In this document: in pieces, positions 845 to 49,440 of the stretch | Numbering within the stretch: position 1 is the first letter of the stretch | Layout of the letters: each line of letters starts with the position of its first letter | Source of the DNA: Bacteroidota bacterium | GTDB taxonomy: Bacteria > Bacteroidota > Bacteroidia > Bacteroidales > B18-G4 | Length of the DNA stretch: 51,965 nucleotides | Reading direction: 5' to 3' | Assembly (NCBI GenBank): GCA_018831055.1 | Contig: JAHJRE010000228.1 | Location: forward strand, 1 to 51,965 | Program-made: the position numbers and the translations under genes | Notes under the pieces: model-generated | What the model saw: only the letters and a program-made list of their open reading frames with translations | Told to the model about the DNA's origin: nothing | The model's database searches: none

Positions 845-926
845 TGCCACTCAGGAACTAAGGCCACTGTTGTATACTAAGGATTTGTCTTTATATATGC
901 TTCTTAGTGCCTTAAGTGCCTTAGTT
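845..926. repeat. Imperfect inverted repeat after the P-domain protein gene
   Basis: GAACTAAGGCCACT at about 855-868 faces AAGTGCCTTAGTT at about 914-926. This is a diverged version of the spacer hairpins seen between the other secreted-protein genes. It lies just after the stop codon at 930 of the minus-strand gene, so it could act as a transcript-end hairpin. The 178-base gap holds no gene. Confidence 0.5.
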
Positions 927-929
927 GTT

Positions 930-2666
930 TTATTTTTTTATAAACTTGCTAATCAATATTTTATCTTTCATCTGAATTTTAAAGAGATAGGCCCCTGCTG
1001 GCAGTTGACCCACATCGACCTGAACCTTCCCGGAAGCCGTATTACCTTCACATAATATTCCTGTACTTTTTCCCAAAAGATCAAGAATTTCGATTTTGTA
1101 GCATGAATAATGAGGAATGCCGAAGCGGCAATGGATTATATCTGTCACCGGATTCGGGTAGATATAAATATCATCCGGTTTGTTTGGATGGTTATTCTCA
1201 ATCCCACTGCTCGATGAGTATATCAAAATAATGCTCCATGCCTGCAATGATCCTGTGTTTCCGGCAACACCATCATAGATGCTCAAAGTCCATGTTCCTT
1301 CAGGATCTGTTCCCGTAAAAAGCGATAATGGGTTTTCCGGTTTGTATATACCAGCGAAGGGTGCAGTTCCTTTGGAGATTGAATCTAACGCATTATCGGT
1401 AAGCTTTGTCCCAATAAAATTATCCCCGTCTCCTCCGGCATGGTAAATAATTACCTCACTTATACCTTTGTGTGTCAATGTGAATTCCAGGTCACTGTCA
1501 GATGAATGCAGTACGGAATCTATTACTACTTCCACACCGATCAATGCTTGTGTTTTATACCCAAACTTGTTTAACTCAACAAGCAGGTCATCTTCGGTGG
1601 TTTGAAAATCTTCTATTGCTTTATTCAGATCAGAGCGATTATATTCAATAGTTTCGCTTCCGGCTGGCAGGTAATAGAATGTGCTTTTATCCTGATTCAG
1701 CCAATACGCCTCGCCCTTATAATCAAACCATGTCTGCGACAGCATTTTAACCTGGTTGTTTTTATTATCAAAAGTATAAAGATACCTATGCTCATCAAAC
1801 CAGCCGGAACCGTCCCAGGTTTGAGTCAACGACATGATCATGTTGTTATTCTGATCAAATGTGGATAAGTATCTTACCGCATTTACCCATTCAGATCCAT
1901 TCCAGGATTTCCTCCAAATTTCAACCGGGTTATTGTTTTCATCATAGAGGTACGTTAATTTCCAGTAATTTACCCAGTCGGAGCCGTCCCAGTCTTGCCT
2001 TACACTTTCAATAAGGTTATTGTTTCCATCATTCAGGTATGTGTGTTTTTCGTCATTCACCCAGGTTGAACCATTCCAATAAGTATTAGTGGTTTGTATC
2101 AGGTTATTATTGATATCATATGCGTTAATAAACTTTTTTAAATTGCGCCATTCTGATTGCATTGACCATGTAAAGTGCCGCTCTTCAACCAGGTTGTTGT
2201 TCGCATCATAAAAATAGGTTCGCTTATAATTATTTTCCCAGTAAGATGTGTCCCATGCCAGGAGTACATCTTCAACCAGGATATTGTCACCATTATATAT
2301 GTAAACCCTTTTTGAAAAATTGACAACGTTGTTGGTTGAATAGTACCATTCCTTCAGCTCTTCTATCAGGTTGTTATTGGAAATATCGTATGTGTAGGTA
2401 AACTTATATTCTATTTCCCAGATAGATTCATTCTGATCCCAATCTTCATCAACTTGCTCCATTAGCAAATAGTCATTATTGCACAGCATTTTAAAAGTTG
2501 TCGTCCCTGGGTTTTCTAAAATGAGTTCAGTTGAAAAACCAGCTTTTGATTTAATACCATGCTGCGGTTCTCTGATCGTGGTGCTTCCGGGCGTAATTCT
2601 ATTTTGAGAAATTGCTGTTATTGAAATCACCATCAAGAACAGTAAGCTTTGTAATATTTTTTTCAT
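930..2666 (-). CDS. T9SS-secreted protein: W/YDxNNN repeats, P-domain and type A sorting domain
   Basis: 578 aa. A signal peptide (about 1-20, ending AISQ) is followed by about eight repeats of roughly 30 residues at 60-340. Each has the pattern W(N/D)GSxW.N..K.TY.YDxNNNL.E. Residues of about 370-480 resemble a proprotein-convertase P-domain (GISEVIIYHAGG, then GTDPEGTWTLSIYDG and GSLQAWSIIL). The last 75 residues form a T9SS type A domain with IYPNPVTD, the ILDLLGK strand, LPAGAYLFKI and the terminal lysines FIKK. The P-domain suggests binding or stabilising a partner on the cell surface; that is inference. The 491-aa protein at 15810-17285 has related repeats. Confidence 0.88.
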   Translation of the reverse strand: MKKILQSLLFLMVISITAISQNRITPGSTTIREPQHGIKSKAGFSTELILENPGTTTFKMLCNNDYLLMEQVDEDWDQNESIWEIEYKFTYTYDISNNNLIEELKEWYYSTNNVVNFSKRVYIYNGDNILVEDVLLAWDTSYWENNYKRTYFYDANNNLVEERHFTWSMQSEWRNLKKFINAYDINNNLIQTTNTYWNGSTWVNDEKHTYLNDGNNNLIESVRQDWDGSDWVNYWKLTYLYDENNNPVEIWRKSWNGSEWVNAVRYLSTFDQNNNMIMSLTQTWDGSGWFDEHRYLYTFDNKNNQVKMLSQTWFDYKGEAYWLNQDKSTFYYLPAGSETIEYNRSDLNKAIEDFQTTEDDLLVELNKFGYKTQALIGVEVVIDSVLHSSDSDLEFTLTHKGISEVIIYHAGGDGDNFIGTKLTDNALDSISKGTAPFAGIYKPENPLSLFTGTDPEGTWTLSIYDGVAGNTGSLQAWSIILIYSSSSGIENNHPNKPDDIYIYPNPVTDIIHCRFGIPHYSCYKIEILDLLGKSTGILCEGNTASGKVQVDVGQLPAGAYLFKIQMKDKILISKFIKK

Positions 2667-2699
2667 GATTTTAAGTTTTATGGATATTTAATATTAAAA

Positions 2700-5273
2700 T
2701 TATTGTTTGATGACTTTTTTCACAATCATTTTATTTTTAGTCATTATTCTGACGAAATAAACGCCTGCCGGCAATTTGCTCACATCCAGACTCGTGTCCT
2801 CTTCACCTCTCCCTTTCTTTTCTTCTAAAACCACTTTGCCATAGATGTCAACTATTTCAACTTTAATAACATTAAGTGGAACTTTGAACTTTGGACTTTG
2901 AATTTTGAACTGAGAGGTAGTAGGGTTTGGATAGATAACAACATCCCAGCTATTTTGGAAAACAGAGCCTTGTTCGTCATCTTCAATGCCTGTAAGGCTG
3001 CCATACTTCAGAAAGACATCATTTCCACCAACATATCCCTCATCCGGTGAAACAAAATACACGGTTGTTAATGACATGCCTTCGGTAAATCCCGAAGCAT
3101 CCAGTAACCATTCTTCCCCGCCGTTGGTGGTCTTTAGGATATGATCGTAGCCAACGGTCCAGCCTTCAGATAAATTAAGAAAGAAAATATCAAAAAGTGA
3201 ATGTGTAATATTTGTCGTCTGCAATAACCAGCTGGTGCCATCAGTGGTATGAATAATAAAGCCTTCTGATCCGGCAGCCCATCCTTCCAGGTCATTGATG
3301 AAAAAGATTGAGAAGTAATCGCGGGAGCTATCATAGAACTGAAGGTTATTCCATGTGCTGTTAAAAAATCTTCTAATGGTCGTATGGCCGCATACCTTTC
3401 CATCACCATTACTTTCAGGAAAGGATACAGAAAGTAAATCATCTGATACGCCTGCCGGTGATATATTTGTTATCGTATTATCATCAAACGCCCATATTGT
3501 TCCGTTACTGCCACAAGTATATCCTGTATCTGAAGCTGGCGGAAAGGTGATTGCGTTGAGTACCCCTCCGGGTTCGTGGATAATATTCCATTCACTACCA
3601 CCATTGATAGTTTTCAGTATGACTCCGTTTGCTGTTACCACATATCCTTCCATAATGTTTTTCATGCATATGGAAGTTGTTATTCCAGCTTTTTCCGGCA
3701 AATACTGTATTTCGAATGTTTCTCCACCGTCGGGCGTATAGTACATTTTATCTGCGCCTCCTGCCAGCCAACCCTTCTGGCCGATAAAATGCATATCTCT
3801 TATTCCGCCTGATTCGGGCAAGTTGTTCCGTAGATTTCGCCAGCCATGTGTAGCAGTGAGTGATGCTGTAAAGTTTCTGATTTCCGATTGATCGGAAATT
3901 GTCAGGTTAATTGATGGCGGGTCGAAGGTATAATAAGGCTTTTCAGGTATAAGTGTATAATTTCCAGGAGGTAAATGGCTGAAAGCATAGTCGCCGTTTT
4001 CGTTGGTGTGCACGTTTGCATTTATTGGCCCTGATAGTTGAAGTATAGCATCCTTTAATGGTTCGCCCTGTTGCATGATATTTCCCTGAATAGATCCGGG
4101 TGTCAGGGGTGAGTTATCATCTCTTACAGGCCACACCCGCCTGAATTTTGCAGGTTCCTTATCCAGTTCGTGTGTAACATCTGTCAGGGTAATACATACA
4201 TCATGTGTCCTATCTGAAGAACTGGCCGAGGTAGTGGATGTCCAGTATGAAGAGTGCGGGTGAGTAAATGGATGGTTCTGAGGTAAATGAGAATATAAAT
4301 ATTCTCCTCCAAAATCCCTTAATGAAAGCATCTCATTTCGGTTGGGCAGGCGCCAGTCGTTATGGCCTGAATAATATAAATTATTAAGTGAGTCAATATA
4401 CCCTAATGCCTGGCCCCAAGTTATTCCATCTTCCCAACCGAAGCCGAACAATCCAAAAGGGTTGGCATTTTGAGTCCACATGAGCCCGGTCAGGCGATCG
4501 GTAACCGTGCTGTCGTTATGGTCAATAAACCTTGGCGTTGGCCAGGGTATGCCGAAGGAAAGGTCTAAGTCATCTCCCGGGTAATAACTTTTTTCCTGGT
4601 GGGTTCGGGGAAGCTTAATCAAGCCGTTTCCCAGCTCGCCTCTCACCGGCAGAACGTAAACTTTTCTTTTGTCGGCATAATAATTCAAATCAAGTTCCTT
4701 TCTGTACCAGTGCACCTGTCCGGGCCAGCCATCCGGAACGGAATTGATTTCCCATTCAAACATATTTATAACAAAGGCGATACCCTTGTCGTATCCTGTT
4801 GTTGAACTCCAATAGGATTGTTGAATGTTATGGAAAGGATGATTGAGTGAAAGTGCCGTGTCAGGCACGCCGAGGTCAAGCAGCGACATTAATTCCTGTA
4901 TGTTCGGCAACCGCCAATTGTTATACCCAAGATAATGATCCTGGTTTAATCTGGCGACATAATCCAGTGCCGTTGTCCAATTTACTGATCCGTCCCCGGC
5001 ATTGTAATCCTGGTCGAAGTCAGGATCACGCGAAGCCATGAGATTGCCATCAGTCAGCCAAATCAGACCTGTCAAGGTGTCCGTGCATGTTCCATTGCCA
5101 TGATCTGTAAACCGCTGTGTTGGCCACTGAACACCCATCTGCAGGTCGCCATCGTCTCCGGGATAATAGCTTGTTGTCTGGCCGGTGACAGGGAGCTGGA
5201 TGGCGCCCTGTTGTCCAAATGAAAAATAAAAAATAAAAAATGAAAAATGCAAAATGAAGATGAGTTTTTTCAT
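2700..5273 (-). CDS. T9SS-secreted protein: two DUF1566 domains, CarboxypepD_reg-like domain, YCF48-like propeller
   Basis: 857 aa. Signal peptide 1-20, then two DUF1566 (Lcl C-terminal-like) domains at about 40-212 and 225-392. Both carry the marks TGLIW/TGLMW, WRLPN..E(L/M).SL, YW(S/T)STT and V.PVR. About 398-475 is a carboxypeptidase-regulatory-like beta sandwich (GSIQGNI, DGY/ENGDYAFSHLPPGNYTL). About 480-760 is a YCF48/BNR-like propeller with TTDGTSW and TTNGGEEW blades. The end is a T9SS type A domain (IYPNPTTSQF to VKKVIKQ). It has the same architecture as the protein at 20161-23052. Purine-rich DNA at 2798-2826 adds a charged KKGRGEED loop to the sorting domain, and the signal peptide is coded by an A-rich imperfect repeat. 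Confidence 0.9.
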   Translation of the reverse strand: MKKLIFILHFSFFIFYFSFGQQGAIQLPVTGQTTSYYPGDDGDLQMGVQWPTQRFTDHGNGTCTDTLTGLIWLTDGNLMASRDPDFDQDYNAGDGSVNWTTALDYVARLNQDHYLGYNNWRLPNIQELMSLLDLGVPDTALSLNHPFHNIQQSYWSSTTGYDKGIAFVINMFEWEINSVPDGWPGQVHWYRKELDLNYYADKRKVYVLPVRGELGNGLIKLPRTHQEKSYYPGDDLDLSFGIPWPTPRFIDHNDSTVTDRLTGLMWTQNANPFGLFGFGWEDGITWGQALGYIDSLNNLYYSGHNDWRLPNRNEMLSLRDFGGEYLYSHLPQNHPFTHPHSSYWTSTTSASSSDRTHDVCITLTDVTHELDKEPAKFRRVWPVRDDNSPLTPGSIQGNIMQQGEPLKDAILQLSGPINANVHTNENGDYAFSHLPPGNYTLIPEKPYYTFDPPSINLTISDQSEIRNFTASLTATHGWRNLRNNLPESGGIRDMHFIGQKGWLAGGADKMYYTPDGGETFEIQYLPEKAGITTSICMKNIMEGYVVTANGVILKTINGGSEWNIIHEPGGVLNAITFPPASDTGYTCGSNGTIWAFDDNTITNISPAGVSDDLLSVSFPESNGDGKVCGHTTIRRFFNSTWNNLQFYDSSRDYFSIFFINDLEGWAAGSEGFIIHTTDGTSWLLQTTNITHSLFDIFFLNLSEGWTVGYDHILKTTNGGEEWLLDASGFTEGMSLTTVYFVSPDEGYVGGNDVFLKYGSLTGIEDDEQGSVFQNSWDVVIYPNPTTSQFKIQSPKFKVPLNVIKVEIVDIYGKVVLEEKKGRGEEDTSLDVSKLPAGVYFVRIMTKNKMIVKKVIKQ

Positions 5274-5291
5274 GGCTGATATTTTTATATT

Positions 5292-5382
5292 ACCAACATA
5301 TGCACAATAGAACTCAACTTGTCCCGATTTATCGGGATAGTTACAGATAGGATTCTATGTGCCCTATTGTGCCTAATGTGGT
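5292..5382. repeat. Spacer inverted repeat with nested hairpin
   Basis: The outer arms ACCAACATATGCACAATAG (5292-5310) and CTATTGTGCCTAATGTGGT (5364-5382) are largely complementary. Inside is a perfect TCCCGAT-TT-ATCGGGA hairpin (5322-5337). It lies six bases past the stop of the minus-strand gene at 5389, so it would be transcribed as that gene's 3' hairpin. No clear U-run follows. Confidence 0.7.
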
Positions 5383-5388
5383 TCATTA

Positions 5389-6606
5389 TCATAATTTAAC
5401 GATCTTTCTTGCAATTATTTGATTTTCAGTTTCTACCGTAAAGAAATAAATCCCCGGCAGTAAATAACTTAGGTCAAATTGAATTACATCCGAAGCAGGT
5501 TTTCCTTTGAACAACATTCCCGAACTTCTCCCGGTTATATCAAACATTTCGATTTTGCAAAATGCAAATTGAGAAATGTCGAATCGACAATGAGCAATGT
5601 CCACAACCGGGTTTGGGCTTAGCACACATTCGAACTTCTCTTTTCCTGCGCCCAATTCATTTTCCCCGGTCAGTTCCTCCAGTGACCTTCTCCAAATCCC
5701 TTCCGATCCTATACCACAATAGGCGAAAACATCATCCTTTGTGAAGGCCGAAGCATACATGGTACTCATACCTTCCTGCCATTGTTCCCATATGTTGCTG
5801 TTGTTTTCCAGTTTTGACGGGCCTGTGAACTGACATGCCAAAAGGTGGTTTCCGGCTGGAATTATTTGGATTATAGGAATTCCGTTTATTAGCCCGGAAG
5901 TATACTCCCAGCTTGCGCCCTGATCTGTAGAATAATAAACAAAGGAATATGTATAGGCATATAACCTGTCACCGAGCGTTGCCAACCCGTTAATATCCTG
6001 CACAAGCCCGGTACTTGCAAACTCCCAGTTTGTTCCGTTATCGGACGACCTGAACACACCGGGTTCGGTGCCAGGACCTGTACCAACCAGACCCGCATAA
6101 AGGAAGTCATTGTCATGGGCCATGCAATCCACTCCGTTAGAAGTCAGTCCATTGGTTATCGGATCCCATGACTGCCCGCCATCGGATGACCGGTTCAGTC
6201 CCTGGTTTGCTCCATATCCTGCACCGGCAAAGAGAAATCCGTTAAAATAATAGACGAAATTCAGATTTTCAATGGAAGTCGTTACTTCAGTCCAAATACT
6301 TCCATTATTTTCAGTCTTGTATATTCCATCAGATGTCCAGGCATAGAATGTCTGGGTACCGGGTACACTGATTATATCCTTCAAACTGGATGGGGGCAAT
6401 CCTGTTCCTGATGGAGTCCATGTTTCGCCATGGTCGGATGAAACCAGGAAATTGGATTCACCAGTTGAGGCCAGGACGACTTCATCATTAGCTTGCAAAG
6501 CATTGACCGTTTCAGTGGGGGCGGAGGTTTGCTGCCATTGGCCATAGAGGCACATGGAAAAGCTCAACGCCATTGTAAAAAGGGAGAAGGTAAAGGTTGT
6601 TTTCAT
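5389..6606 (-). CDS. T9SS-secreted BNR-repeat (sialidase-like propeller) protein
   Basis: 405 aa. The signal peptide ends near residue 22 (CLYGQ). The body is BNR/Asp-box blades: SSDHGETW, TENNGSIW, SSDGGQSW, SSDNGTNW, STDQGASW. No sialidase catalytic arginine triad or FRIP motif is apparent, so enzymatic activity is not supported. The C-terminus is a T9SS type A domain containing the cysteine pair HCRFDISQF..C, then LLPGIYFFTVE and IVKL. It is a paralogue of the partial protein at the left edge. Spacer hairpins lie on both sides, so it may be its own transcription unit. Confidence 0.87.
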   Translation of the reverse strand: MKTTFTFSLFTMALSFSMCLYGQWQQTSAPTETVNALQANDEVVLASTGESNFLVSSDHGETWTPSGTGLPPSSLKDIISVPGTQTFYAWTSDGIYKTENNGSIWTEVTTSIENLNFVYYFNGFLFAGAGYGANQGLNRSSDGGQSWDPITNGLTSNGVDCMAHDNDFLYAGLVGTGPGTEPGVFRSSDNGTNWEFASTGLVQDINGLATLGDRLYAYTYSFVYYSTDQGASWEYTSGLINGIPIIQIIPAGNHLLACQFTGPSKLENNSNIWEQWQEGMSTMYASAFTKDDVFAYCGIGSEGIWRRSLEELTGENELGAGKEKFECVLSPNPVVDIAHCRFDISQFAFCKIEMFDITGRSSGMLFKGKPASDVIQFDLSYLLPGIYFFTVETENQIIARKIVKL

Positions 6607-6679
6607 GGTAGTGGAGTAACTTTGAATTCATAATAATTAAGGATATTGTCAAGATCAAATTATGTACAGATTTTTATTT

Positions 6680-6761
6680 ACCACAATAGCCACAATAGAG
6701 CACAGTAGATATAATGTGTTCTATCCCGATTATTATCGGGACAGGTTGTGTCTATTGTGGT
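6680..6761. repeat. Spacer inverted repeat with nested hairpin
   Basis: A perfect 10-bp outer stem (ACCACAATAG 6680-6689, CTATTGTGGT 6752-6761) encloses a second CACAATAG copy and the hairpin TCCCGAT-TATT-ATCGGGA (6724-6741). It directly follows the stop of the minus-strand gene ending at 6768. Confidence 0.75.
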
Positions 6762-6767
6762 TCATGT

Positions 6768-8609
6768 TTATGATTTTATAACCTTCTTTACAATCATTTG
6801 GCCATCAGTTATTATTTTTAAAAAATAGATTCCTGGAGAAATACGACTGATGTCAAGTTGCAGGTTACTGGTTGCAGGTTCAGGTATGTTGACCATCAGT
6901 ATCTTTCCGAACAAATCGACTAACTCTACTTTGTCAATTTTTAATTCTTCATTTTTAATGTTTAATTTCCCTAAGGTTGGATTGGGCCACAACATAAGCT
7001 CCTCATTTTCTTCGATATCATTGATGCCGAAATGCAAAACGGGGGAGTAGATCACAAGGGCTTTGGAAGGGTCATCGCTGTTATCATATACGTCAAACAA
7101 TCCCACGTCGCTTTCAGTATCGTGCGACCATTCGTTGTTCTGTGCCCAGATGGTATCGATCAGTTCCGCCGGTGTTTCAATGTACAGGTCATAGCCTCCA
7201 TTGTTTTTAACTGTATTATAGCCGGTACCGGGTTCATTCAGTCTGCCCATTGTAATTGCATCCTTAACCCAAATGCCGTGGCCGCCATTGTCCCTGATGA
7301 TATTATGATTCAGTGAAACCGCACTGGTATCCCATTCCTCCGGGAAGTCGAGTACCATACCATCTCCGGTGCACAGTTCAACGAGATTGCTGTCTATCCT
7401 GGCCGACGCAGATGACAGGTACAACCCATAATGTGCGTTGTTGATCTCATTCTGAGCAAAGTTGTTTGAAGCTGTGGCATACAGATATGTACCATAGGTT
7501 CCGCCGTTTATTTTATTCCCCCTCATTCCTCTGAATGCCACCGAATGGATTCTTATACCGCATATTGCGTTTGTGTCTTCTGCAAAAGGAAGTCCTGATG
7601 GTACTATGTAAGGGAGGGTTATGAAGTTATTCTCTATAGTACCTCCGGCAACAGTCTGTAGTTTAATGCCGCATCTGGATCCATCCGTTTGGATAGTGTT
7701 TTGACGTATTACAAGATTAGTGGATACACAATGGAAGTAAATTCCACCATTGTTAAGGGTATTGCCGGTTACCTCCGCTGAGTCCAGTGCAGTAAAACTA
7801 CCTGACAGAGATCCCTGCACTATCTGATTGTTTTTGAACTGAAATCCGGAGGACGAAACAGCGGATAGTTTAGTGTTCAATCCTATTTGGTTATCATTAA
7901 TGATATCAGGGGCTGAAGCGACAGATGAAATTTCCAGGTTGCCATTTATGTCGTTGTTTGCTACAACCAGGGTATCCTTTTTGGAAATCGTTGAAATTTT
8001 CATGTCACCTCCGACCAAATTCCCATTCAAAGACACTTTGCCCTCCCGCAAACTGGAAAAATAGAGTGCCAGATGATCTGCTGTTTCACAATCAATGATT
8101 TCAATAATGCCTTTGCAAAGCGGAACATAAAGGTGGATGCTGTCGTCAACCGTATTGGCTGACAAATAGAGACATCCTGTTGAGTCAATAATAGAAATGT
8201 CGTTTGAAAAGGTATTTAGTTTACAACCCAGTATGCTCAGCGAAGTTTTCAGGATGCTGCTGTCGCTGAGCACGATGTTTTTGCAGGCCAGATCCTGGAT
8301 GGTAACCGGCATGATGTCCACTGCTCCGGATAAGATATATAAACCTTCTATGATGGTCTCGGAATTGCTGATACCTTTGATATGTACATTTCTGGTAATC
8401 AGCAGCGAATCTTCGGGATAGGTTCCGGCGGCAATGGAGATAGTATTCAGGTTTTGGGCAATATTCAATGCTTCGTTGATGGTATTGAACGGATGTTCCT
8501 GGGTGCCGTCCTCAATTCCTGTATTGTTTGTGATATCAACATAAATGGTTTGTGCATGCAATCCATGCAATGCGAACAGGAAAGCAAAAGCAATAATTAT
8601 ATTTTTCAT
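6768..8609 (-). CDS. T9SS-secreted right-handed parallel beta-helix protein
   Basis: 613 aa from the ATG at 8609. An in-frame ATG 13 codons upstream would put a cysteine-rich stretch before the signal peptide MKNIIIAFAFLFALHGLHAQ, so the inner start is preferred. After the signal comes a DUF1565-like entry module (YVDITNNTGIEDGTQEHPFN), then a long series of beta-helix turns rich in N, I and G (for example GGTIENNFITL and ARIDSNLVELCTGDG), typical of pectate-lyase-like or adhesin folds. No catalytic motif was recognised. The end is a T9SS type A domain (LWPNPTLGKLNI to IVKKVIKS). The same entry module recurs in the protein at 10081-12828. Confidence 0.87.
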   Translation of the reverse strand: MKNIIIAFAFLFALHGLHAQTIYVDITNNTGIEDGTQEHPFNTINEALNIAQNLNTISIAAGTYPEDSLLITRNVHIKGISNSETIIEGLYILSGAVDIMPVTIQDLACKNIVLSDSSILKTSLSILGCKLNTFSNDISIIDSTGCLYLSANTVDDSIHLYVPLCKGIIEIIDCETADHLALYFSSLREGKVSLNGNLVGGDMKISTISKKDTLVVANNDINGNLEISSVASAPDIINDNQIGLNTKLSAVSSSGFQFKNNQIVQGSLSGSFTALDSAEVTGNTLNNGGIYFHCVSTNLVIRQNTIQTDGSRCGIKLQTVAGGTIENNFITLPYIVPSGLPFAEDTNAICGIRIHSVAFRGMRGNKINGGTYGTYLYATASNNFAQNEINNAHYGLYLSSASARIDSNLVELCTGDGMVLDFPEEWDTSAVSLNHNIIRDNGGHGIWVKDAITMGRLNEPGTGYNTVKNNGGYDLYIETPAELIDTIWAQNNEWSHDTESDVGLFDVYDNSDDPSKALVIYSPVLHFGINDIEENEELMLWPNPTLGKLNIKNEELKIDKVELVDLFGKILMVNIPEPATSNLQLDISRISPGIYFLKIITDGQMIVKKVIKS

Positions 8610-8660
8610 GGCTATTAATATTGAACCACATAGACACTTAGGACACATATAAAAGCCAGG

Positions 8661-8699
8661 AACCCTTAGCGTTCATTAGAGTCCCAGGCGTCTAAGGGG
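8661..8699. repeat. Short imperfect spacer hairpin
   Basis: AACCCTTAG (8661-8669) pairs with CTAAGGGGTT (8692-8701) around a 22-base loop. The sequence before it, CCACATAGACACTTAGGACAC, resembles the outer arm of the other spacers. It overlaps the stop codon of the FISUMP gene and sits between that gene and the beta-helix gene upstream of 8700. Confidence 0.45.
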
Positions 8700-10001
8700 T
8701 TATTCGTTTTTCAAACACCTGACAGATATAGCAGAATGTTTATCATAGCTGCCTTCCAGGATATAAACCCCGTTGCAAACCAAACCGCGGTTGGCTCCGT
8801 TAGTAGTGCCAAAATCGTCTGAAGACCAATGATCCCCTTCGAGAGTCAGGGCCAGGAAGCTGCCGCTCCAGTCCATAAAAGCACCACCCGGGATGCCGGT
8901 GAAGCCGCTTTCATTGGTTGCCATGTCGTTGCTGCAACCCCAGAGTTCTGTGCCGGCTTTTTTAAGTTTTTCGCTCGGGTAATCTCCCAGGAAAGTAATC
9001 AGTTCCGTCCATTCTGCAATAGTAGGGATATGCCATCCCGCGGGACAGATCCCCTGGGTTCCGGGAGTTGTGGAATAGTTCATCATTTCATCCCACTGGT
9101 ATAAGCCGCCATACACGTCACAATTCGCGGAATTATCGTTGTAACAGTATTTATCGATTGTGCCGTTGTTTTGCATCAGGGTTGTGTGCGGGATCATGGA
9201 ACCGGCATCCAGGTTGTCCTGCATCCAGCATTGGCCTCCGATCTGAACGGTACGGTATGTTTTCCCTTCATAATCGAACCAGGGTAGTCCCGGACAAGGG
9301 ATCCCTTCCTTAATAGTGAAGGTATAGGATGAATTTGACTGGGGTGCATCCTGGATGACATCGCTTCCCAGGATATCAATTGAATTATTGGCATATCCTG
9401 TAAACCTTAGTTCATCTCCGAGCAGAAAGGGGAAGGCATAAATGCCTTCGTATGCTTTGAAATGGTTTGATACCTGCTTTAAACCCATGTAATGTAAACT
9501 GCATTTGTTATCCGCGGCATACGGTGAGTTGGAAATTTTGATAGTACGGATTGAGTTTTTAGAGGATGCCGTAAAGAAACAAAACTGTTCATTGCCCGGG
9601 TATAAGCGGTATTTGTGAGTGCCTTTTTCGCACAGGGCGGAGTGAGAACACAAGTCACGCCCGAGAATATCCGTAATGCGAATATTCAGGATTTCATCTT
9701 CCGGTATATAGACCTCAATGTTTGTAAAAGATCTTGCCGGGTTCGGATAGTTTTGAAAAACGTTAAGATCACCATTAGCGGATGATGGGTTCTCAGAAAT
9801 ATCTGTTGTTATTTCCAATGAGATGGCCGTGTCGGAATAGACCATTAAAATACCGGGCCGGGTCAGGTTCTCGATAAGGATGCTGTCAAGTGAGACATTT
9901 TGACCTTCGTACTGTGCTGTAAAGGTCAAATCAATGGAGGTTTGTCCTGTGATAAGTGTGGACACGATTGCTAAGATCAATGATAAACATGTTTTTTTCA
10001 T
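8700..10001 (-). CDS. Secreted FISUMP-domain protein with an internal sorting-domain-like module
   Basis: 433 aa with a signal peptide (1-20, ending LITGQ). About 75-165 looks like a Por/T9SS-type sandwich (FQNYPNPARSFTNIEVY, then ITDILGRDL), but it is internal. The C-terminal half (about 240-433) is a FISUMP domain (Fibrobacter succinogenes major paralogous domain), with TVQIGGQCWMQDNL, YGGLYQWDEMM, GICPAGWHIPT..EWT.L, GFTGIPGG and AISVRCLKN at the very end. The protein therefore lacks a C-terminal sorting signal, and its route past the outer membrane is unclear. It is a paralogue of the protein at 40587-41951 with the same domain order. Function unknown. Confidence 0.87.
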   Translation of the reverse strand: MKKTCLSLILAIVSTLITGQTSIDLTFTAQYEGQNVSLDSILIENLTRPGILMVYSDTAISLEITTDISENPSSANGDLNVFQNYPNPARSFTNIEVYIPEDEILNIRITDILGRDLCSHSALCEKGTHKYRLYPGNEQFCFFTASSKNSIRTIKISNSPYAADNKCSLHYMGLKQVSNHFKAYEGIYAFPFLLGDELRFTGYANNSIDILGSDVIQDAPQSNSSYTFTIKEGIPCPGLPWFDYEGKTYRTVQIGGQCWMQDNLDAGSMIPHTTLMQNNGTIDKYCYNDNSANCDVYGGLYQWDEMMNYSTTPGTQGICPAGWHIPTIAEWTELITFLGDYPSEKLKKAGTELWGCSNDMATNESGFTGIPGGAFMDWSGSFLALTLEGDHWSSDDFGTTNGANRGLVCNGVYILEGSYDKHSAISVRCLKNE

Positions 10002-10015
10002 AGTAGTTTTTTTTT

Positions 10016-10074
10016 ACCACATTAGGCACAATAGGTCACAATAGACCTAATATGTCCTATTGTGCCGGTGTGGT
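10016..10074. repeat. Spacer inverted repeat, best-preserved copy
   Basis: ACCACATTAGGCACAATAGG (10016-10035) faces CCTATTGTGCCGGTGTGGT (10056-10074). The stem is about 19 bp with a few mismatches, around a 20-base loop that itself contains CACAATAG. It starts six bases after the stop of the minus-strand gene at 10081. Confidence 0.8.
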
Positions 10075-10080
10075 TCATTA

Positions 10081-12828: not shown

Positions 12829-12855
12829 GATTTATACTTTTAATTTAGTTCATTC

Positions 12856-12962
12856 ACCACATTCGGTACAACCTGTCCTGATGAAAATCGGGAATAGAGC
12901 GCAATAGTTGTGCTGTGCTTGATTCCGGATATTCAGCAGAACAAGTTGTGATTTAAGTGGTT
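12856..12962. repeat. Degenerate spacer inverted repeat
   Basis: ACCACATTCGGTACAACCTG (from 12856) faces CAAGTTGTGATTTAAGTGGT (ending about 12961). Between them lie remnants of the inner hairpin (CCTGATGAAAATCGGG). It immediately follows the stop at 12968 of the minus-strand gene. Confidence 0.5.
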
Positions 12963-12967
12963 TAACA

Positions 12968-15610
12968 TTATAATTTTATTATTTTTTTGGCAATTACTTG
13001 ATTATTAGATATTAGCCTGACGAAATATACACCTGCTGTTAAACTACTTATATCTATATTTATCTTTTCGTTACTTTCATTTTGTAGTTTTTCAACCTTA
13101 ATCACTTTTCCGTACAAGTCAAGAATTTCAATTTTATCAATGGATAAAAATTGTGTGTTGTATACTATAAATTTTGAATAAGTGGGATTAGGATAAATAT
13201 CAATTTCAGGATTCATTATCCTGGATGGATTTAGCCAGGTTAACTGGTCAATAAAGTTGCCGTAGGATCGGAAGGTATTTACTTCCTGGCTGTTGATTTC
13301 CTGTGTAAATCCTGTGTATGTTGCCAGGATCTGGCCATTGTTCCCCGGACAAAGTTTCGGAGCATACTGGATACCTTCGCTGTTATCAATAGTGAACTCC
13401 TGGCCTGCATTCCCATCCGGGCCAACAACAACCCCTACAATATCCTGATCAGGATGTGAATTGGAATAAAGCTGCCAGCAAAGCAAATAATCATTTCCAT
13501 CGAAGGCAACAGACGGTTTTTGGGCATGTTCATAGGTAGAGGCAGGAAAGTAGGTTTGAGAATTAATAATTATTGAACCATCGTTTGCTACAATGCTCCC
13601 ATAAATTGATTCCTTTGATATGCTGCCGGCTTGCCAGGAAACCATGAAATTATTTCCATTGCTGCATACCACAGGATTGCTTGCTGAATTTTGTCCGTTT
13701 GTAAGCTGAATACCATCCGGATTTAATATTGTTCCATCGGTACTGATCAGCGTACCGTAAATATCGTGTGTGCTATTGCGGTAATCTTCCCATATAACGA
13801 GATAATTTGTCCCGTTAAAGGCAATTCTTGGGAAATCCTGGTCGCCATTTGCACTGCAAAGCGTAAAGATTTCACCAAATGTTGCATTCTGGTCTACTAG
13901 TAATCCAAATATATCGTAGGCATTGGAAGTATATTCATACCAGACAATTAAAGATTGTTCTCCATCGGAGCAGACATTAAACTGCCAGCAAAAATCACTT
14001 TCATCGTATATAGTGATACATGGGTCATCCAGCACTTCGCCATCACTGGTCACGCGTGACAATCTGCCACCTGCTGAATATCCCCCGCTGGTTGAGGAAT
14101 TCCAGGTTACCATAAATTCAGCACCATTGAAAGCGACTGAGGGGTTCCAGAATTTCAACGTGTCGTTGTAACCGATCCTGATTCCATCGGGATCGAGAAT
14201 TACGCCTGAAGTATTCACTCTTGTTCCCCATATTTCTATCTGTCCGGTGCGCCAGTCCTCCCACACCACGAGGTAGTTTGTACCATCGAAGGCCGAGGTT
14301 GGATTTGCATGTGCATAGGCGCCAATACTGATATTAAAGCCTTCATTGTCGGGCATGATATAATCCGGAATACTGATTCTGCCGCCCTGAACATCAACCT
14401 CCAGGGGATATTTTTTATTTTCCCACACTGCAAGGGTATAATTTGTTCCGCAGGAGATATCACCGTACCTGGCATTCGTGTTTTCCCAGGCGCCGACGCC
14501 ATAGCCTTCTGGGTTGATCACTGTTCCATCCGGACTAACACAAGTTGCGTAGGTATCCCATCCATTCCTGAGGTCGGTAAACGATACGATGAAATTTGTG
14601 CCGTCAAAATCTATGGCAGGAAACTGTTGCGCTTCTGACTGGTTAGCTATCGGGAATCCGGAAGTATTTGCCACTGTGCCGTCGGGTAGTACAATGGTGC
14701 CAAAAACATCTCCATCATCATCTTCTGAATCATCACCCCAGACTACCAAATATTTTCCGTTTCCAAAACTTACGTCAGGAACCCATTGGTCACCCTGTTT
14801 ATTGGCAATAATAAAACCACCCTGGTCCATAACAATTCCATCTGTGCTTAACCGGGAACCGAGGATATCATCATGAATTGAATACATTCCGGATTCCCAT
14901 ACGATCAGGAAGTTGGTTCCATCGAAGGCCGCTGCCATATCCCCGGTATCATCGTCGATCGTATCAGATACAATTATTCCTTCAGGATCAAGAACATTGG
15001 CATTTTGATCAATTCGAGTACATTTAACGGCATGGACCCCTTTTGCCATGTCTTCACACCACATAATAACGGTCATGTTGTTCCCTGAGGCTGCAGCCGG
15101 GTTGATGTAGGAAACCATGTTAATTGCGGAGGCAGCCTGGATGCCATCAGGGTCTAGAATTTCTCCGGATGGGGTTACACGGGCGAAATAAATATCATAC
15201 TGGAAATTGTTTCTGCGGTCAACCCAAATTACAATGAAATTGCTTCCATCGAATACAACGTCAGCGATAGCCTGCTGAAAATCAGCGGTACATACGGGTA
15301 TTCCCCCAATATCAAGCACATTGCCATCTTCATCGATTCTTGTTGCATAGATGTCAGGGTTTTGACTTGTCTGACCTCTAAAGTCTGTCCATGCTGCTAA
15401 AAAAACATTTCCATTTGAAGCAATTTTCGGGGAAAGTTGTTCATTGATTATACCGGAATACGCAATGTTTTCGTCGAGTAAAAATGATTCTCCAGTAAAA
15501 TGTTCATGGGATTGCTTTAACTGAAGATCTCCTTTATTGTCCTGGGATCTGATTTGAATTGATATTCCTGACAAAAAGGTTAAAATAAAAATTAGATAAA
15601 GGTTTTTCAT
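12968..15610 (-). CDS. T9SS-secreted propeller-like protein with 'DGTNYLVVWED' repeats
   Basis: 880 aa. The signal peptide ends near residue 23 (IQIRSQ). About 55-790 is a series of repeats of roughly 50-60 residues with the pattern (F)DGTNFLVVWED.R.....DI.G..(I/V)...G..L.(D/N)P.GI.(I/L), likely propeller blades. The end is a T9SS type A domain (IYPNPTYSKFIVYNTQ, ILDLYGKVI, LTAGVYFVRLI, AKKIIKL). No enzymatic motif was recognised, and such repeats are usually adhesive or structural. AT content is visibly higher in the sorting domain than in the repeats. Confidence 0.86.
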   Translation of the reverse strand: MKNLYLIFILTFLSGISIQIRSQDNKGDLQLKQSHEHFTGESFLLDENIAYSGIINEQLSPKIASNGNVFLAAWTDFRGQTSQNPDIYATRIDEDGNVLDIGGIPVCTADFQQAIADVVFDGSNFIVIWVDRRNNFQYDIYFARVTPSGEILDPDGIQAASAINMVSYINPAAASGNNMTVIMWCEDMAKGVHAVKCTRIDQNANVLDPEGIIVSDTIDDDTGDMAAAFDGTNFLIVWESGMYSIHDDILGSRLSTDGIVMDQGGFIIANKQGDQWVPDVSFGNGKYLVVWGDDSEDDDGDVFGTIVLPDGTVANTSGFPIANQSEAQQFPAIDFDGTNFIVSFTDLRNGWDTYATCVSPDGTVINPEGYGVGAWENTNARYGDISCGTNYTLAVWENKKYPLEVDVQGGRISIPDYIMPDNEGFNISIGAYAHANPTSAFDGTNYLVVWEDWRTGQIEIWGTRVNTSGVILDPDGIRIGYNDTLKFWNPSVAFNGAEFMVTWNSSTSGGYSAGGRLSRVTSDGEVLDDPCITIYDESDFCWQFNVCSDGEQSLIVWYEYTSNAYDIFGLLVDQNATFGEIFTLCSANGDQDFPRIAFNGTNYLVIWEDYRNSTHDIYGTLISTDGTILNPDGIQLTNGQNSASNPVVCSNGNNFMVSWQAGSISKESIYGSIVANDGSIIINSQTYFPASTYEHAQKPSVAFDGNDYLLCWQLYSNSHPDQDIVGVVVGPDGNAGQEFTIDNSEGIQYAPKLCPGNNGQILATYTGFTQEINSQEVNTFRSYGNFIDQLTWLNPSRIMNPEIDIYPNPTYSKFIVYNTQFLSIDKIEILDLYGKVIKVEKLQNESNEKINIDISSLTAGVYFVRLISNNQVIAKKIIKL

Positions 15611-15710
15611 AATGGTGTTGTTTTGCGTTTTGTTTTTAAATATTGTGCCTTTAAAGATTTAAAAGTTTAAAAACAGTTATTGAATTATTAGTTTTTAATG
15701 ATCTTTTTTC

Positions 15711-15803
15711 ACCACAATAGGCACAGTAGGGCACAAAGATTCACATAGAATCCTATCCCTAGTTTTCGGGATAAGTTGTGTTTCCTATTGTGTTCTATGT
15801 GGT
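15711..15803. repeat. Spacer inverted repeat
   Basis: ACCACAATAGGCACAGTAGG (from 15711) faces CCTATTGTGTTCTATGTGGT (ending 15803). The inner part has ATCCC and GGGAT arms around TAGTTTTC. It begins six bases after the minus-strand stop at 15810, as in the other copies. Confidence 0.7.
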
Positions 15804-15809
15804 TTATTA

Positions 15810-17285
15810 TCATAATTTGATGATCTTCTTCACAAGTATTTGATTTTCATGATATATTCTGACAAAGTAGATACCCGCAGGGAAAGCACTCACGTCAATA
15901 CTTGTTTCCTCTTCTCCTCTGCTCCCTTTCTCTTCTTCCAAAACGACCTCGCCAAACAAATCAAACAATTCCACACGGATTATCCGCTGACTAAAGATCG
16001 AAGACTTCAGGTAGACAACCGAACTTGCAGGATTGGGGTATAGTATCCAATCATCCTGGTACAGCTCATCTATTCCCGCGTTTCCGGAATAGAAATAGTA
16101 ATCTCTGAAATGCAATAAATACTCACCTATGTGAACCACGTAGCTGTAATACGAGTCGGTATGCAGACGGGTCAGGCTGTCGTATTGAAAGAGATGGCAG
16201 TCAACCAGTTCCCATGCCTCATCGGGTTGTAACCATTGAAAAAGTGAATCCGACAATTGTATGGTTCCATCCTGATAAGAATATCTCCGCTCATAGGTAG
16301 GCACCCATTGTGCCTGGTCATTTCCTGAATATGTCCGGTAATGCACAAGACTACCATAGCTATTATAGGTCATTTCCGCTTTAAGGTCAGGGTACCAAGT
16401 GACCAGATCTTCACCGATCCTGTAATAGGCATAAAGGATCAGGCTGTCGCTATCGTCCCAGCCCCAGTCATCCTTCTCTTTATCAATCCAGATTTCTTCG
16501 CCTTCATCGTATTCAGAGTACAAAGAGTTGGTTTTTCTGTTATAAGTATCGTACCAGTATTGATGCCTTACTGTCAGGTACCATAACCCGGTGCCGGTAT
16601 TATATATCTGATGAATATTTTCAATCTCATTGCCCGAGCCATCGTATTGGTAGTCAATTCGTTCAGATGGATAGATCACCCCTCCGAAATCTTCGTCCGG
16701 TTCCCAGATGGTCAGGTGTTGCAGCAAACCATCCAAGCCGTAATCATAAATGTCGTAAGAAGCAGTATCCCATTGCTCCGATGCCGTGTTCCACTCGAGA
16801 TGGTTTCTTCGCAGGATCTTATTTTGTGCATCGTACAAAAAAACATCCCAGTGATAGTTTTGCCAGTCGCTCAGTGTATAATTCCAGGTATAATAATAAT
16901 ATTGGACTTTATTCCCATTGTTGTCGTATTCGATGGTCTCTTTCATCCATCCTTTATATGCTGAGGTATTGATATCCCATTCGTAGATTGCCCACAAGGT
17001 GCGTCTGTCGTGGCTATCGTATTCCCATAAATCTTTTCGTTGGGGTATCCAAAGGTTCAGGGACTGTTCTCTGGTGAATTTTTCCGATTCGATCGTATGC
17101 ATATGACTGTCGTAGCGATATTTTGTCAGGGTGTTCAATGTTGAATCCCCATAGGCATCGAATTTCCATGCAATAATAGAATCGGGACAGGCCGGGGGCA
17201 TGATCCCATTTTCTGTTTCCTGGGCAATGATTCCTGGAAAGAGGCCAAGGCAGAAAAGCAGCAAAATGAAATAAGGCTTTGTCAT
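15810..17285 (-). CDS. T9SS-secreted protein with W/YD-type repeats
   Basis: 491 aa. Signal peptide 1-21 (LFPGIIAQ). Residues of about 55-400 are degenerate repeats of roughly 30 residues with W(E/D)..., YEYDSHDRRT, IEYDNNGNKV and DYQYDGSGNEI, distantly like those at 930-2666. The T9SS type A domain (about 415-491) has WILYPNPASSVVYL, LFDLFGEVVL, a purine-coded KGSRGEEETS loop, FPAGIYFVRI and VKKIIKL. Its start codon lies 2 bases after the stop of the upstream 915-aa gene, so the two are probably cotranscribed and translationally coupled. Function unknown. Confidence 0.87.
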   Translation of the reverse strand: MTKPYFILLLFCLGLFPGIIAQETENGIMPPACPDSIIAWKFDAYGDSTLNTLTKYRYDSHMHTIESEKFTREQSLNLWIPQRKDLWEYDSHDRRTLWAIYEWDINTSAYKGWMKETIEYDNNGNKVQYYYYTWNYTLSDWQNYHWDVFLYDAQNKILRRNHLEWNTASEQWDTASYDIYDYGLDGLLQHLTIWEPDEDFGGVIYPSERIDYQYDGSGNEIENIHQIYNTGTGLWYLTVRHQYWYDTYNRKTNSLYSEYDEGEEIWIDKEKDDWGWDDSDSLILYAYYRIGEDLVTWYPDLKAEMTYNSYGSLVHYRTYSGNDQAQWVPTYERRYSYQDGTIQLSDSLFQWLQPDEAWELVDCHLFQYDSLTRLHTDSYYSYVVHIGEYLLHFRDYYFYSGNAGIDELYQDDWILYPNPASSVVYLKSSIFSQRIIRVELFDLFGEVVLEEEKGSRGEEETSIDVSAFPAGIYFVRIYHENQILVKKIIKL

Positions 17286-17287
17286 GG

Positions 17288-20035
17288 TTAATTATTATTA
17301 AGGATGGTAATTTTCCCGGTAAATATTTCCTGAGGTGTCCTGATCACACAGGTATAGATCCCGTTACTTATATTTCCTGCATTCCAGGTGATTTCGCGTG
17401 TACCTTTGTCAAGGTACCTGGGATTGCTTTGATATACAATGCGTCCCTGTATATCCCTTATTTCCAGGATTGCGCTGCCTGACTCGGAGAGGTTAAACTC
17501 AAGAACGGCATTGTCAGACACGGGATTCGGATAAACAGAAATGGTTTTAAACGCTGTATTACCGGATATCAATGGCATTTCATGGATCCCCAGCGGGGGC
17601 ATGGGCAGCATGGTGAGTTTGCCGCCTTTGCGGTAAAAGACGATGTTCCAGTTTCCGGCATCACCGGCTATTCTGCCATCACCGGTGGCTATATACCCAC
17701 CGTAAGAGGTTGGTTGTGCATCATACGCCCTGGCAGTTGTGGGCATGTAAACATACCCGGGAGACCATCCAATGGTATCGGATGAAATAAAGTTTCCTTC
17801 CGTATCATAGGTTCTGATGTTCATAAAGTACTGCGAACCAAACTCTTTTCGGCTTAACAGGATGTTGCCGTCCGGTTTTTTTGCTATGGTATTAAATCCT
17901 CCATGCTCAATGGTTTCGGAAGTTTTTTCCCATAGTGTATTGCCGTTGGGATCCAGTTTAGCTATATATTCTTTGTTCTGGTAATAACCCACCAGGAGGA
18001 AGGAGCCATCATCCTGCTCCAGGATGTCACCGCCGGCTTCCCAATAATTATCATCGCCGATTTCCCTTGTCCAGAGAGTATCTCCGTTGGCATTGAAACG
18101 AATAGCATAGATATTGGTGATGTATCCCAGGTCCAGCGAGTGTCCCCTGGTACCGGCGAATATGTATCCGCCATCTGCAGTTCTGTGCACATGGCCTACC
18201 TCGTCCCTGCGGTTTCCACCGTATCTTTTTGTCCACAGACTATCCCCCTGGGAATTGATTTTCATGAACCACAGGTCTCCGGAGCCATCATAGCGGTATG
18301 TCTTTCCTGCAATAAAATAGCCGCCGTCGGCAGCGGTAACAATGGAATAGCCTGCCTCATCGGTATCGCTGGCATAGATTTTTTCCCATTCTTTGTTACC
18401 GTTTTCGTTTGTCTTTACAATGTAAAGATCTTCGCTTGAGCCACCGGATGACTTTGTTAAGCCCGTGAGGATGAATCCGTTGTCGGGGCAGATAGCCACG
18501 TCAAAGGCCCGGTCTTCATTATTGCCTCCATAGTTTCGGGTCCAGAGGGTATCACCATTGATGTCGGTCTTAATGAGCCTCATATCGTAAGTAGAAGATG
18601 TGATGGATGTTCCCTGGTAGCCGGCAACAATGAAGCATTTATCCGGAGTTTCCAGGACGGCATGGCCTCTTCCCCAGGTTGCATAGCCTTCAAGGTTATA
18701 GTATCCGTCGGTATTTTTCGGAGGTTCAAGTTTCCATGCATAAACATCATGGAGCCTGTTTGCCTTGTAATCGTATCCGGTTACATAGAGGAAGCCGTTT
18801 TCATCGGAAGTGATCGCATAAGCCACATCCATATCTATGGCAGGGCCGACGTACCTCATGACCCAGAGGTCGCGCCCGGTGCGGTGGTCAATGCTGATAG
18901 TTCCTGCCTCGGCCAGCAAACCGCAGAAATAGCCTGCGACATGAACATTGGTGTCAGGGGTCTGGGTGATTGAAAATGCCATGTCATAGTTGCCGTACAA
19001 GCCCTCGTAGCGGTGGAACCAGACCGGGTCTCCCTGGAGGTCAACCTTCAAGACAGCCGCATCCATATCGGTGTCAACCTGGTTGTCACGGCCTCCGGCG
19101 CGTCCTGTGATATAAATATTATTATCGATGCCATAGATCAGTTCGTAGCAGGTCTCTCCCCAGTAGGGTTCGGGACCCGGGCCATCTACATTGCAGTTCC
19201 ACTGGTACTGTCCGTAAGCATCCAGACAAACAACTCCCATATCTGAGTTGATCATGCAACTGGCATAAATCCTTCCATCCTTGCCATAAACGATATCGGT
19301 TGCCCAGGTTGCCCCTACATTGAAAAGTGGAAACAGGTATTTCCAGTTTTTTTCACCGGTGGGTGTGAGGCTGACTATGACGAGTTGTTTTTCAGTGGAT
19401 TCGGTAGTATAGCCGGCTGCATAAATATTTCCGTCATCACCAAGGGTAATGGCAGAGGCCTGATCATCACAAAGAGCATATGAGCAACCTCCATCGAACC
19501 AGTATATCCATTCCTGTTCACCGGAGTTTGCATTAACGGCGGCTACAATGAAGTCGTAATTGGCTTTACCGGCAACATAGACCATTCCGGTTTCATCATA
19601 AACAAGGGAGTATCCTGAACTTAAGTAACTTCCGGCATCGTCATAAATGTATTCCCATCGAAAACTTCCGGCGGAGCTTACACTAAAAACCACGATTTTA
19701 TCATCTTCGTTTGCATTTTCTGATGTACCGCAAACATAGATATTGCCATCACCGCCATAAACGATCTCTGCCACTTCCATCACTTTATCAGGATGTCCTT
19801 CATAGGTATAGATCCATTCCTGGCCCCCCTCCTTATTGAGTTTGATAACGATGATGTCATAATCAAGATCATCGTTTTCCGTACCGGCAATGTAGATGTA
19901 TCCATCTGCGCCGTAAACGATATCCTGGCCTATTTCACTGCGGCCATTGTTATAGCTGTAGAACCATCTGTGATTCTGTCCGATGCTTTGAAGGAAAAGC
20001 GTGAGGATCGCTGTGACTAATAATGCTTTTTTCAT
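17288..20035 (-). CDS. T9SS-secreted beta-propeller (delta-60/PQQ-like repeat) protein
   Basis: 915 aa. Signal peptide 1-19 (LFLQSIGQ). About 35-440 is a first set of blades of the type IVYG.DG.IY(I/V)AG......D.(I/V)V.(K/S)L...G...W.Y. About 445-800 is a second set of the type V....DGG(Y/F)I(L/F)(A/T)G.....GD.(L/W)..K.(N/D)..GD.LW...YGG. The C-terminal sandwich (VYPNPVSDNAVLEFNLSESG to KITILNNN) belongs to a different sorting-domain subtype from its neighbours, with no terminal lysine run. It is the first gene of a two-gene unit with the 491-aa gene 2 bases downstream. No active site was recognised. Confidence 0.87.
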   Translation of the reverse strand: MKKALLVTAILTLFLQSIGQNHRWFYSYNNGRSEIGQDIVYGADGYIYIAGTENDDLDYDIIVIKLNKEGGQEWIYTYEGHPDKVMEVAEIVYGGDGNIYVCGTSENANEDDKIVVFSVSSAGSFRWEYIYDDAGSYLSSGYSLVYDETGMVYVAGKANYDFIVAAVNANSGEQEWIYWFDGGCSYALCDDQASAITLGDDGNIYAAGYTTESTEKQLVIVSLTPTGEKNWKYLFPLFNVGATWATDIVYGKDGRIYASCMINSDMGVVCLDAYGQYQWNCNVDGPGPEPYWGETCYELIYGIDNNIYITGRAGGRDNQVDTDMDAAVLKVDLQGDPVWFHRYEGLYGNYDMAFSITQTPDTNVHVAGYFCGLLAEAGTISIDHRTGRDLWVMRYVGPAIDMDVAYAITSDENGFLYVTGYDYKANRLHDVYAWKLEPPKNTDGYYNLEGYATWGRGHAVLETPDKCFIVAGYQGTSITSSTYDMRLIKTDINGDTLWTRNYGGNNEDRAFDVAICPDNGFILTGLTKSSGGSSEDLYIVKTNENGNKEWEKIYASDTDEAGYSIVTAADGGYFIAGKTYRYDGSGDLWFMKINSQGDSLWTKRYGGNRRDEVGHVHRTADGGYIFAGTRGHSLDLGYITNIYAIRFNANGDTLWTREIGDDNYWEAGGDILEQDDGSFLLVGYYQNKEYIAKLDPNGNTLWEKTSETIEHGGFNTIAKKPDGNILLSRKEFGSQYFMNIRTYDTEGNFISSDTIGWSPGYVYMPTTARAYDAQPTSYGGYIATGDGRIAGDAGNWNIVFYRKGGKLTMLPMPPLGIHEMPLISGNTAFKTISVYPNPVSDNAVLEFNLSESGSAILEIRDIQGRIVYQSNPRYLDKGTREITWNAGNISNGIYTCVIRTPQEIFTGKITILNNN

Positions 20036-20050
20036 AATGTGAAAATTTCT

Positions 20051-20146
20051 ACCACATTAGGCACAACCTGTCCCGATAAAAATCGGGATTGAGCACAATA
20101 GTTTCTGAGTGTATCTCTTCAGGTTTTCAATGTGACAAGTTGTGCC
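20051..20146. repeat. Spacer inverted repeat with nested hairpin
   Basis: GGCACAACCTGTC (20060-20072) pairs with GACAAGTTGTGCC (20134-20146) with one mismatch. A perfect TCCCGAT-AAAA-ATCGGGA hairpin (20071-20088) and the ACCACATTAG arm (20051) complete the family pattern. It follows the minus-strand stop at 20161. Confidence 0.75.
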
Positions 20147-20160
20147 TTTTTTGGTCATTG

Positions 20161-23052: not shown

Positions 23053-23071
23053 AATGTCATGATTGTAATTT

Positions 23072-42444: not shown

Positions 42445-42452
42445 TCAGGATG

Positions 42453-49351: not shown

Positions 49352-49440
49352 TGGGTGTGTTGTTGATGATAAACAAATATAGTGAAAAAAATAAAGAAAT
49401 TGAAAAAAGTTGTATTGCAACTTTAACTCTTTTGATATTG

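Follow-up and report, generated by a model that had tools for sequence, protein, structure and literature searches.

Results

Inverted repeats in a row of secreted-protein genes

The window (the whole stretch of DNA that was analyzed, 51,965 nucleotides) is an entire contig, C228 of the source genome G000, which comprises 4.19 Mb in 342 contigs. Ten secreted-protein genes lie in a row on its minus strand, nine of them with the PF18962 T9SS sorting domain (Table 1). A previous sequence-only reading had listed at least seven gaps of this row as carrying inverted repeats, most of which begin within about six bases of a stop codon on the same strand, and this description is borne out in part. All seven repeats are present, and each is preceded by a PF18962 T9SS-sorted gene whose stop codon lies 3 to 14 nt away, exactly 6 nt in four cases (from the minus-strand stop to the nearest arm, 3, 6, 6, 6, 5, 6, and 14 nt, with the gaps taken in coordinate order from 845-926). 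In the direction of the genes, the stop codon and this short spacer are followed by ACCACA..., a hairpin, ...TGTGGT, usually an A-rich stretch, and the next ATG. The folding energies of the seven repeats are 2.2 to 8.0 standard deviations below those of shuffled sequences (z of -2.2 to -8.0).

The same reading took all seven for one design. Six of them do share a dialect, ACCACANTAG-N-CACANTAG-NN-CACANTAG, but the copy at 845-926 is written in a different one, with CTAAGGCAC units as its words. The window also holds copies that had escaped notice: a decayed eighth one in the row, lying inside an over-long ORF at its 5′ end, and two inside-out copies, in which the ends face each other.

TABLE 1 Gene row and repeat copies in the window
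Feature	Position	Strand	Remarks
Row of ten secreted-protein genes, repeats in its gaps	930..23139	-	9/10 with PF18962
Inverted repeat, CTAAGGCAC dialect	845..926	-	3 nt past stop of T9SS gene 930-2666; weakest of the seven
Inverted repeat, CACANTAG dialect	5292..5382	-	6 nt past stop of T9SS gene 5389-6606; inner hairpin at 5322-5337
Inverted repeat, CACANTAG dialect	6680..6761	-	6 nt past stop of T9SS gene 6768-8648; inner hairpin at 6724-6741, within a single word (CACAA^TAG)
Decayed eighth copy, CACTTAG-like words	about 8618..8697	-	Past gene 8700-10001; approximate bounds
Inverted repeat, CACANTAG dialect	10016..10074	-	6 nt past stop of T9SS gene 10081-12828; shortest loop
Decayed inverted repeat	12856..12962	-	5 nt past stop of T9SS gene 12968-15610; inner hairpin at 12876-12893
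Inverted repeat, closest to copies in a Lentimicrobium array (L283)	15711..15803	-	6 nt past stop of T9SS gene 15810-17285
Inverted repeat, CACANTAG dialect	20051..20146	-	14 nt past stop of T9SS gene 20161-23139; inner hairpin at 20071-20088; one arm decayed
Inside-out copy, TGTGGT-like and ACCACA ends facing	42466..42521	.	Outside the gene row
Inside-out copy, same dialect	44009..44062	.	Outside the gene row

Other short-word sequences occur in the window. A HepT-like/nucleotidyltransferase pair of the toxin-antitoxin type (44165-44801) directly adjoins an inside-out CAC repeat. Arrays of GGGTACTG words lie at 42358-42445 and 45306-45401, the latter forming a very strong inverted repeat (-84.7 kcal/mol); the GGGTACTG dialect is also found around a four-helix-bundle gene of the source genome (L009). 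At 49427-49632, an inverted repeat of a separate word family (CCTCACCCCCAACCCC/AGGGGCCGGGGGTGAGG) is followed by a 32-bp tandem repeat. Heptamer tandem words (GAACTTT and AAATGAA) appear within the coding sequence of a T9SS gene at 2879-2911 and 5217-5258, one tract in the sorting-domain region and the other at the signal peptide; the tract at 2879-2911 is similar to the arm dialect of a four-helix-bundle locus, L039.

Anatomy of the arms

The arms are built of a single nine-to-ten-letter word that is repeated; in the family as a whole, they are tandem words of the form CRC plus four to six letters. Across 49 distinct arm pairs from many genomes, the consensus is A(C)CACANTAG, one free base, CACANTAG, two free bases, and CACANTAG, so that the CAC starts within an arm are 9 bp and then 10 bp apart; the wording in the window family is CCACANTAG, N, CACANTAG, NN, CACANTAG. 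Variation among the 49 pairs falls mostly at the free bases and at the N of the word, at the identical position in every word. Such a pattern would result if DNA words were recognized directly on a single face of the helix or if the arms were copied from a shared source; it is not the one that we would expect from a pairing constraint.

An inner TCCCGAT/ATCGGGA hairpin had been described as frequent. It is indeed present, and its position can now be stated more precisely, for it sits mostly at one fixed site within a word, CACAA^TAG. This is the case in the copies at 6680, 12856, and 20051 and in copies on three other contigs (C105, C137, and C171). In UBA5833, CCCGGCTACTTTGCCGGG occupies the same position. 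The hairpin looks like a second small palindrome that entered an arm and was then copied along with it.

Distribution across genomes

Allowing up to three mismatches, the arm pattern has 44 matches in the whole source genome, versus 7 for a reversed control pattern. With one mismatch allowed and 60 genomes searched, there were 36 matches in the source genome and none in two genomes of the same genus, one in a genome of the same family, and 29 and 9 in two genomes of the same order belonging to other families. A scan of 84,980 species returned 74 stretches, nearly all from Bacteroidales-type metagenome-assembled genomes (MAGs) and one from an Ignavibacteriae MAG. The 29-letter arm with its 9/10 spacing recurs at unrelated loci and in unrelated genomes, and the distribution is patchy and horizontal-looking. 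At the DNA level, nothing beyond short matches to the gene row occurs in the same-genus genomes. Words of this sort (ACCACGAAGACACGAAG and the like) occur commonly in environmental genomes.

Movement and target duplications

Signs of insertion come from one other genome, a termite-gut Prevotellaceae MAG (G090), where eight CACAATAG repeats lie within an outer repeat, TTAGTACATGAC/GTCATGTACTAA. Direct duplications of 9 bp (for example, CAGTTCGTT, GAAGAAAAC, CTATAAACT, and CATAAATCT) flank seven of the eight units, one of them with a mismatch; the remaining unit has none. The unit interiors differ in length and wording, and several units (L063, L075, L079, L084, L112, L113, and L119) show nested inverted repeats of varied wording inside TTAGTACATGAC. 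The units containing the CACAATAG repeat were thus inserted in this genome as blocks. Since it is the outer repeat, TTAGTACATGAC, that the duplications bound, CACAATAG may have been carried along as a passenger.

Beside the arms of 14 copies tested in the source genome, there were no target duplications. Nor did we find a precise empty site; when we looked for one in G088 with locus L226, we came upon homologous T9SS arrays instead.

Pairing of the arms

The sequence-only reading held that the arms vary while their pairing is kept, which it took to suggest either selection on RNA or cruciform structure or a mobile repeat. We compared the pairing of each arm with its own partner and with the partners of strangers in three ways (window copies, 55 copies, and 49 arm pairs), and none revealed covariation; a stranger's arm pairs as well as an arm's own partner does. 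In the 49 arm pairs, 86.0% of cells are paired, versus 85.5% after shuffling, and there are 29 double-sided changes, versus 28.9 expected; the arms were selected by consensus, which restricts the variation available to this comparison but not its direction. Compensatory changes are therefore as frequent as chance predicts, the outcome that had been named beforehand as refuting, and selection on the paired structure is unsupported.

No intrinsic terminator with a U-tract occurs at the repeats in the direction of the genes; there is one weak consensus match, within 15711-15803. Without a U-tract after the hairpins, intrinsic termination is unlikely, and we rejected the possibility that the repeats are conventional terminators with a G+C stem and U-tract. 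Rfam has zero matches within the window. The hairpins between the genes will, from their predicted folding, form in the transcript without terminator tails, and they may affect mRNA ends by accident.

GxxExxY and four-helix-bundle genes within short-word arms

In the source genome, we examined five four-helix-bundle genes (TIGR02436) and three GxxExxY genes (TIGR04256). Most of these eight are flanked by inverted short-word tracts, worded specifically for each locus. We then compared, across the order, each upstream flank with the reverse complement of its own downstream flank, with the 99th percentile of stranger pairs as the cutoff. Among the loci returned by the search, 22 of 34 four-helix-bundle loci and 11 of 31 GxxExxY loci passed, compared to 0 of 30 SmpB control loci; CRC-word tracts, a dialect defined here by pattern, flank 20 of 32 GxxExxY genes, 9 of 34 four-helix-bundle genes, and 0 of 30 SmpB genes. 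Locus-specific inverted tracts were a frequent sight around S23-like four-helix-bundle genes throughout the order (L009 to L012 and L166 to L195). About 200 to 300 bp upstream of one such gene (L012) is a CCCCGATAGCTATCGGGG palindrome, within an apparent broken duplicate of a neighboring tRNA sequence.

GxxExxY genes inside CACAATAG arms, the dialect of the window, were found at three independent loci: L048 (in G054), L070/L097 (in two close genomes), and L094. The L097 gene is part of an array that also includes several repeat modules without a gene. The CACAATAG dialect accompanies none of the three GxxExxY genes found in the source genome, and the CACAATAG copies there are gene-less. GxxExxY proteins match PDDEXK_3, and D62, E72, and K74 of the PD-(D/E)XK pattern are kept in the four that we aligned. 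A structure model of middling confidence (pLDDT of 71.5) gave nuclease-like best matches (Cas4-like SSO0001 and phage-type exonucleases), none of them significant. GxxExxY is a predicted PD-(D/E)XK nuclease.

The only Y1 (RAYT-type) gene found in the source genome (L316, on contig C221) is followed by a long GACCCCGCCGGGGTCGAGGGTAG array; GACCCCGCCGGGGTCGAGGGTAG units are classic GTAG-tagged REPs.

Position at gene ends and homologous T9SS arrays

Clustering at 3′ ends, suggested earlier as a check, was borne out across the family. The stop codon is nearer than the start codon at 24 of 32 tandem sites (P = 0.007), with 10 convergent and 4 divergent sites besides, by simple ORF calling in draft genomes. 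This bias is moderate, and selection against promoter damage would also give it.

The spacing in the window is stricter and appears too regular for independent insertion. Homologous T9SS gene arrays with repeats exist in two Lentimicrobium-type genomes, G088 and G089. BLAST orthologues were found there for the 915-amino-acid (aa) gene (74 and 63%), the 491-aa gene (58 and 41%), the 992-aa gene (73%), and the 626-aa gene (47 and 47%). The 6-nt distance from stop to repeat is seen at 5 of 5 repeats in G089 and 2 of 3 in G088, along with the 4 of 7 in the window, and the spacer letters are similar; behind other genes, the distance ranges from 0 to 13 nt. Because this spacing and similar letters recur in homologous arrays, duplication of repeat and gene end together accounts for it better than targeting does. 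Of the options offered by the sequence-only reading, a mobile repeat is the best one, but its targeting of gene ends explains the data less well than co-duplication.

Presence behind orthologous genes varies. The 491-aa gene has a repeat behind it in the source genome and G089 but not in G088, the 626-aa gene in the source genome and G088 but not in G089, and the 915-aa gene in none of the three. The copy at 15711-15803 alone is closest to those of G089; the remaining window copies are closest to others of the source genome. Outside the window, about 6 of 17 copies follow T9SS-type genes, versus roughly 1 expected, where the 6 include gene ends judged by eye and the background, about 200 in 3,500 genes, is estimated. 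The source genome has at least 150 T9SS-domain genes; therefore, such genes do not regularly carry the repeat.

Discussion

We favor, at a probability of roughly 55%, the view that the repeats are MITE-like, non-autonomous inverted repeats, related to GxxExxY elements, that have multiplied with duplicating T9SS genes. The dispersed short inverted repeats would be gene-less relatives of elements in which like arms enclose a GxxExxY (PDDEXK_3) gene, whose product would move or maintain them. One copy would have landed downstream of an ancestral T9SS-sorted gene. Once there, it would have been multiplied along with the 3′ ends of these genes while duplication and recombination enlarged the surface-protein array; single copies would have been lost, replaced, or invaded by the second small palindrome, TCCCGAT/ATCGGGA. 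We infer that an old insertion of this kind, copied with gene 3′ ends and followed by loss, replacement, and local homogenization, is the most likely history. Hairpins in the transcript between genes would be a side effect, whether used or not.

Several features of MITEs are found here: terminal inverted repeats, short length, the lack of an ORF, and many dispersed copies. Target-site duplications are missing beside the 14 source-genome copies, and the partner sharing the ends is GxxExxY/PDDEXK_3 rather than a known transposase. CRC-word arms inverted around a GxxExxY gene were seen at other loci, and in the window dialect only in other genomes. Like bacterial MITEs and small intergenic mobile repeats of the ERIC and RU types, the repeats are short, multicopy, hairpin forming, placed in gaps, and patchy among relatives, and in one genome they lie inside units with 9-bp target duplications. 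Unlike those, they have no recognized transposase partner and no target duplication beside the source-genome copies, and the tandem words of their arms change in concert, as dialects. The combination of a repeat-flanked gene with many gene-less repeats elsewhere recalls REP/RAYT systems (REPtrons) and TIRYT elements (PMC3733652), although here a PD-(D/E)XK-type GxxExxY protein takes the place of the Y1 transposase as the partner, and a GTAG tag is lacking. The 23S rRNA intervening sequences with an S23 four-helix-bundle ORF (PMC4990558) are likewise small ORFs within stem-forming inverted repeats and are suspected of being mobile, but the four-helix-bundle genes seen here lie outside rRNA, and their arms are mostly in other dialects; it is the GxxExxY class that the window repeats resemble. 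The TAACTGA heptamer repeats of Beggiatoaceae, Cyanobacteria, and Bacteroidetes (PMC4679880) are also short-word repeats in gaps with a horizontal-looking distribution, but they are direct repeats, mostly upstream of start codons, with a single inverted case.

Other explanations have to be weighed against the MITE-like reading. The hairpins could have been selected as RNA elements that close the mRNA 3′ end, protect it from decay, or mark intercistronic processing, making each surface-protein gene a separate unit. Strong predicted hairpins a few nucleotides past the stops and ahead of an A-rich leader and the next ATG, the 3′ bias of the wider family, and the comparable arrangement in G088 and G089 are what one would expect in that case. 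We nevertheless consider it unlikely: compensatory changes in 49 distinct arm pairs are not above chance, there is no U-tract or Rfam match in the window, only about a dozen of the 150 or more T9SS-domain genes carry a repeat, and in some genomes the repeat is missing behind orthologous genes. Still less probable is an origin by local mutation, without any mobile element, in which slippage expands words and template switching (quasipalindrome correction) copies them to the opposite arm. The tandem words, the several dialects within one genome, and the dialect shared by both arms of a locus would all follow. Such a process does not account for a 29-letter arm with 9/10 spacing at unrelated loci and in unrelated genomes or for the 9-bp duplications around the G090 units, and, contrary to arm-to-arm correction, the two arms of a copy are no more similar to each other than to those of strangers within a dialect.

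Two known systems of repeats can be set aside with more assurance. Genes all on one strand with an inverted repeat right behind nearly every stop, gene bodies that are diverse while their ends are alike, and array content that varies among related genomes bring to mind integron-like (attC-like) recombination sites behind gene cassettes, through which surface-protein genes are shuffled. We rejected this very improbable idea: the RYYYAAC box and the paired GTTRRRY box are absent at the repeat ends, the scan of window ORFs turned up no integrase, copies elsewhere mostly do not follow cassette-like genes, and the T9SS domain itself explains the similar gene ends. It is harder yet to credit that a RAYT tyrosine transposase moves these repeats as REP sequences. 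Small palindromes do occupy the gaps, and Y1 genes are present in 9 of the 10 genomes searched; however, those genes are mostly flanked by their own GTAG-type palindromes rather than by CAC arms, and the window repeats lack a GTAG tag (GTAG alone was scored), so this candidate too was rejected.

One can extend the MITE-like reading to a broader proposal, which we hold only tentatively and consider rather improbable as it stands. The CRC-word repeats would be the recognition ends of an undescribed mobile element whose sole gene encodes the GxxExxY PD-(D/E)XK nuclease, with ends and nuclease drifting together into dialects. Gene-less copies would be passengers, the S23-like four-helix-bundle genes a parallel class, and T9SS arrays would use the repeats as homology for shuffling. 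In the open-licence papers searched, we found no description of the repeat words, of GxxExxY with inverted repeats, or of T9SS genes with intergenic repeats, which argues only weakly for novelty. For the literature examined, what is new is that CRC-word inverted repeats and the GxxExxY nuclease family are linked, and this point is testable.

A conserved RNA structure was a tempting reading of this locus and is now removed as unsupported. If true, the account given here would suggest a role for two families of small proteins that are common but unexplained (GxxExxY and the four-helix-bundle/23S-IVP proteins) and would explain the short-word inverted repeats of shifting wording that litter many environmental genomes. 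It would also offer an explanation, one that can be tested, for the growth and rearrangement of T9SS-exported surface-protein arrays.
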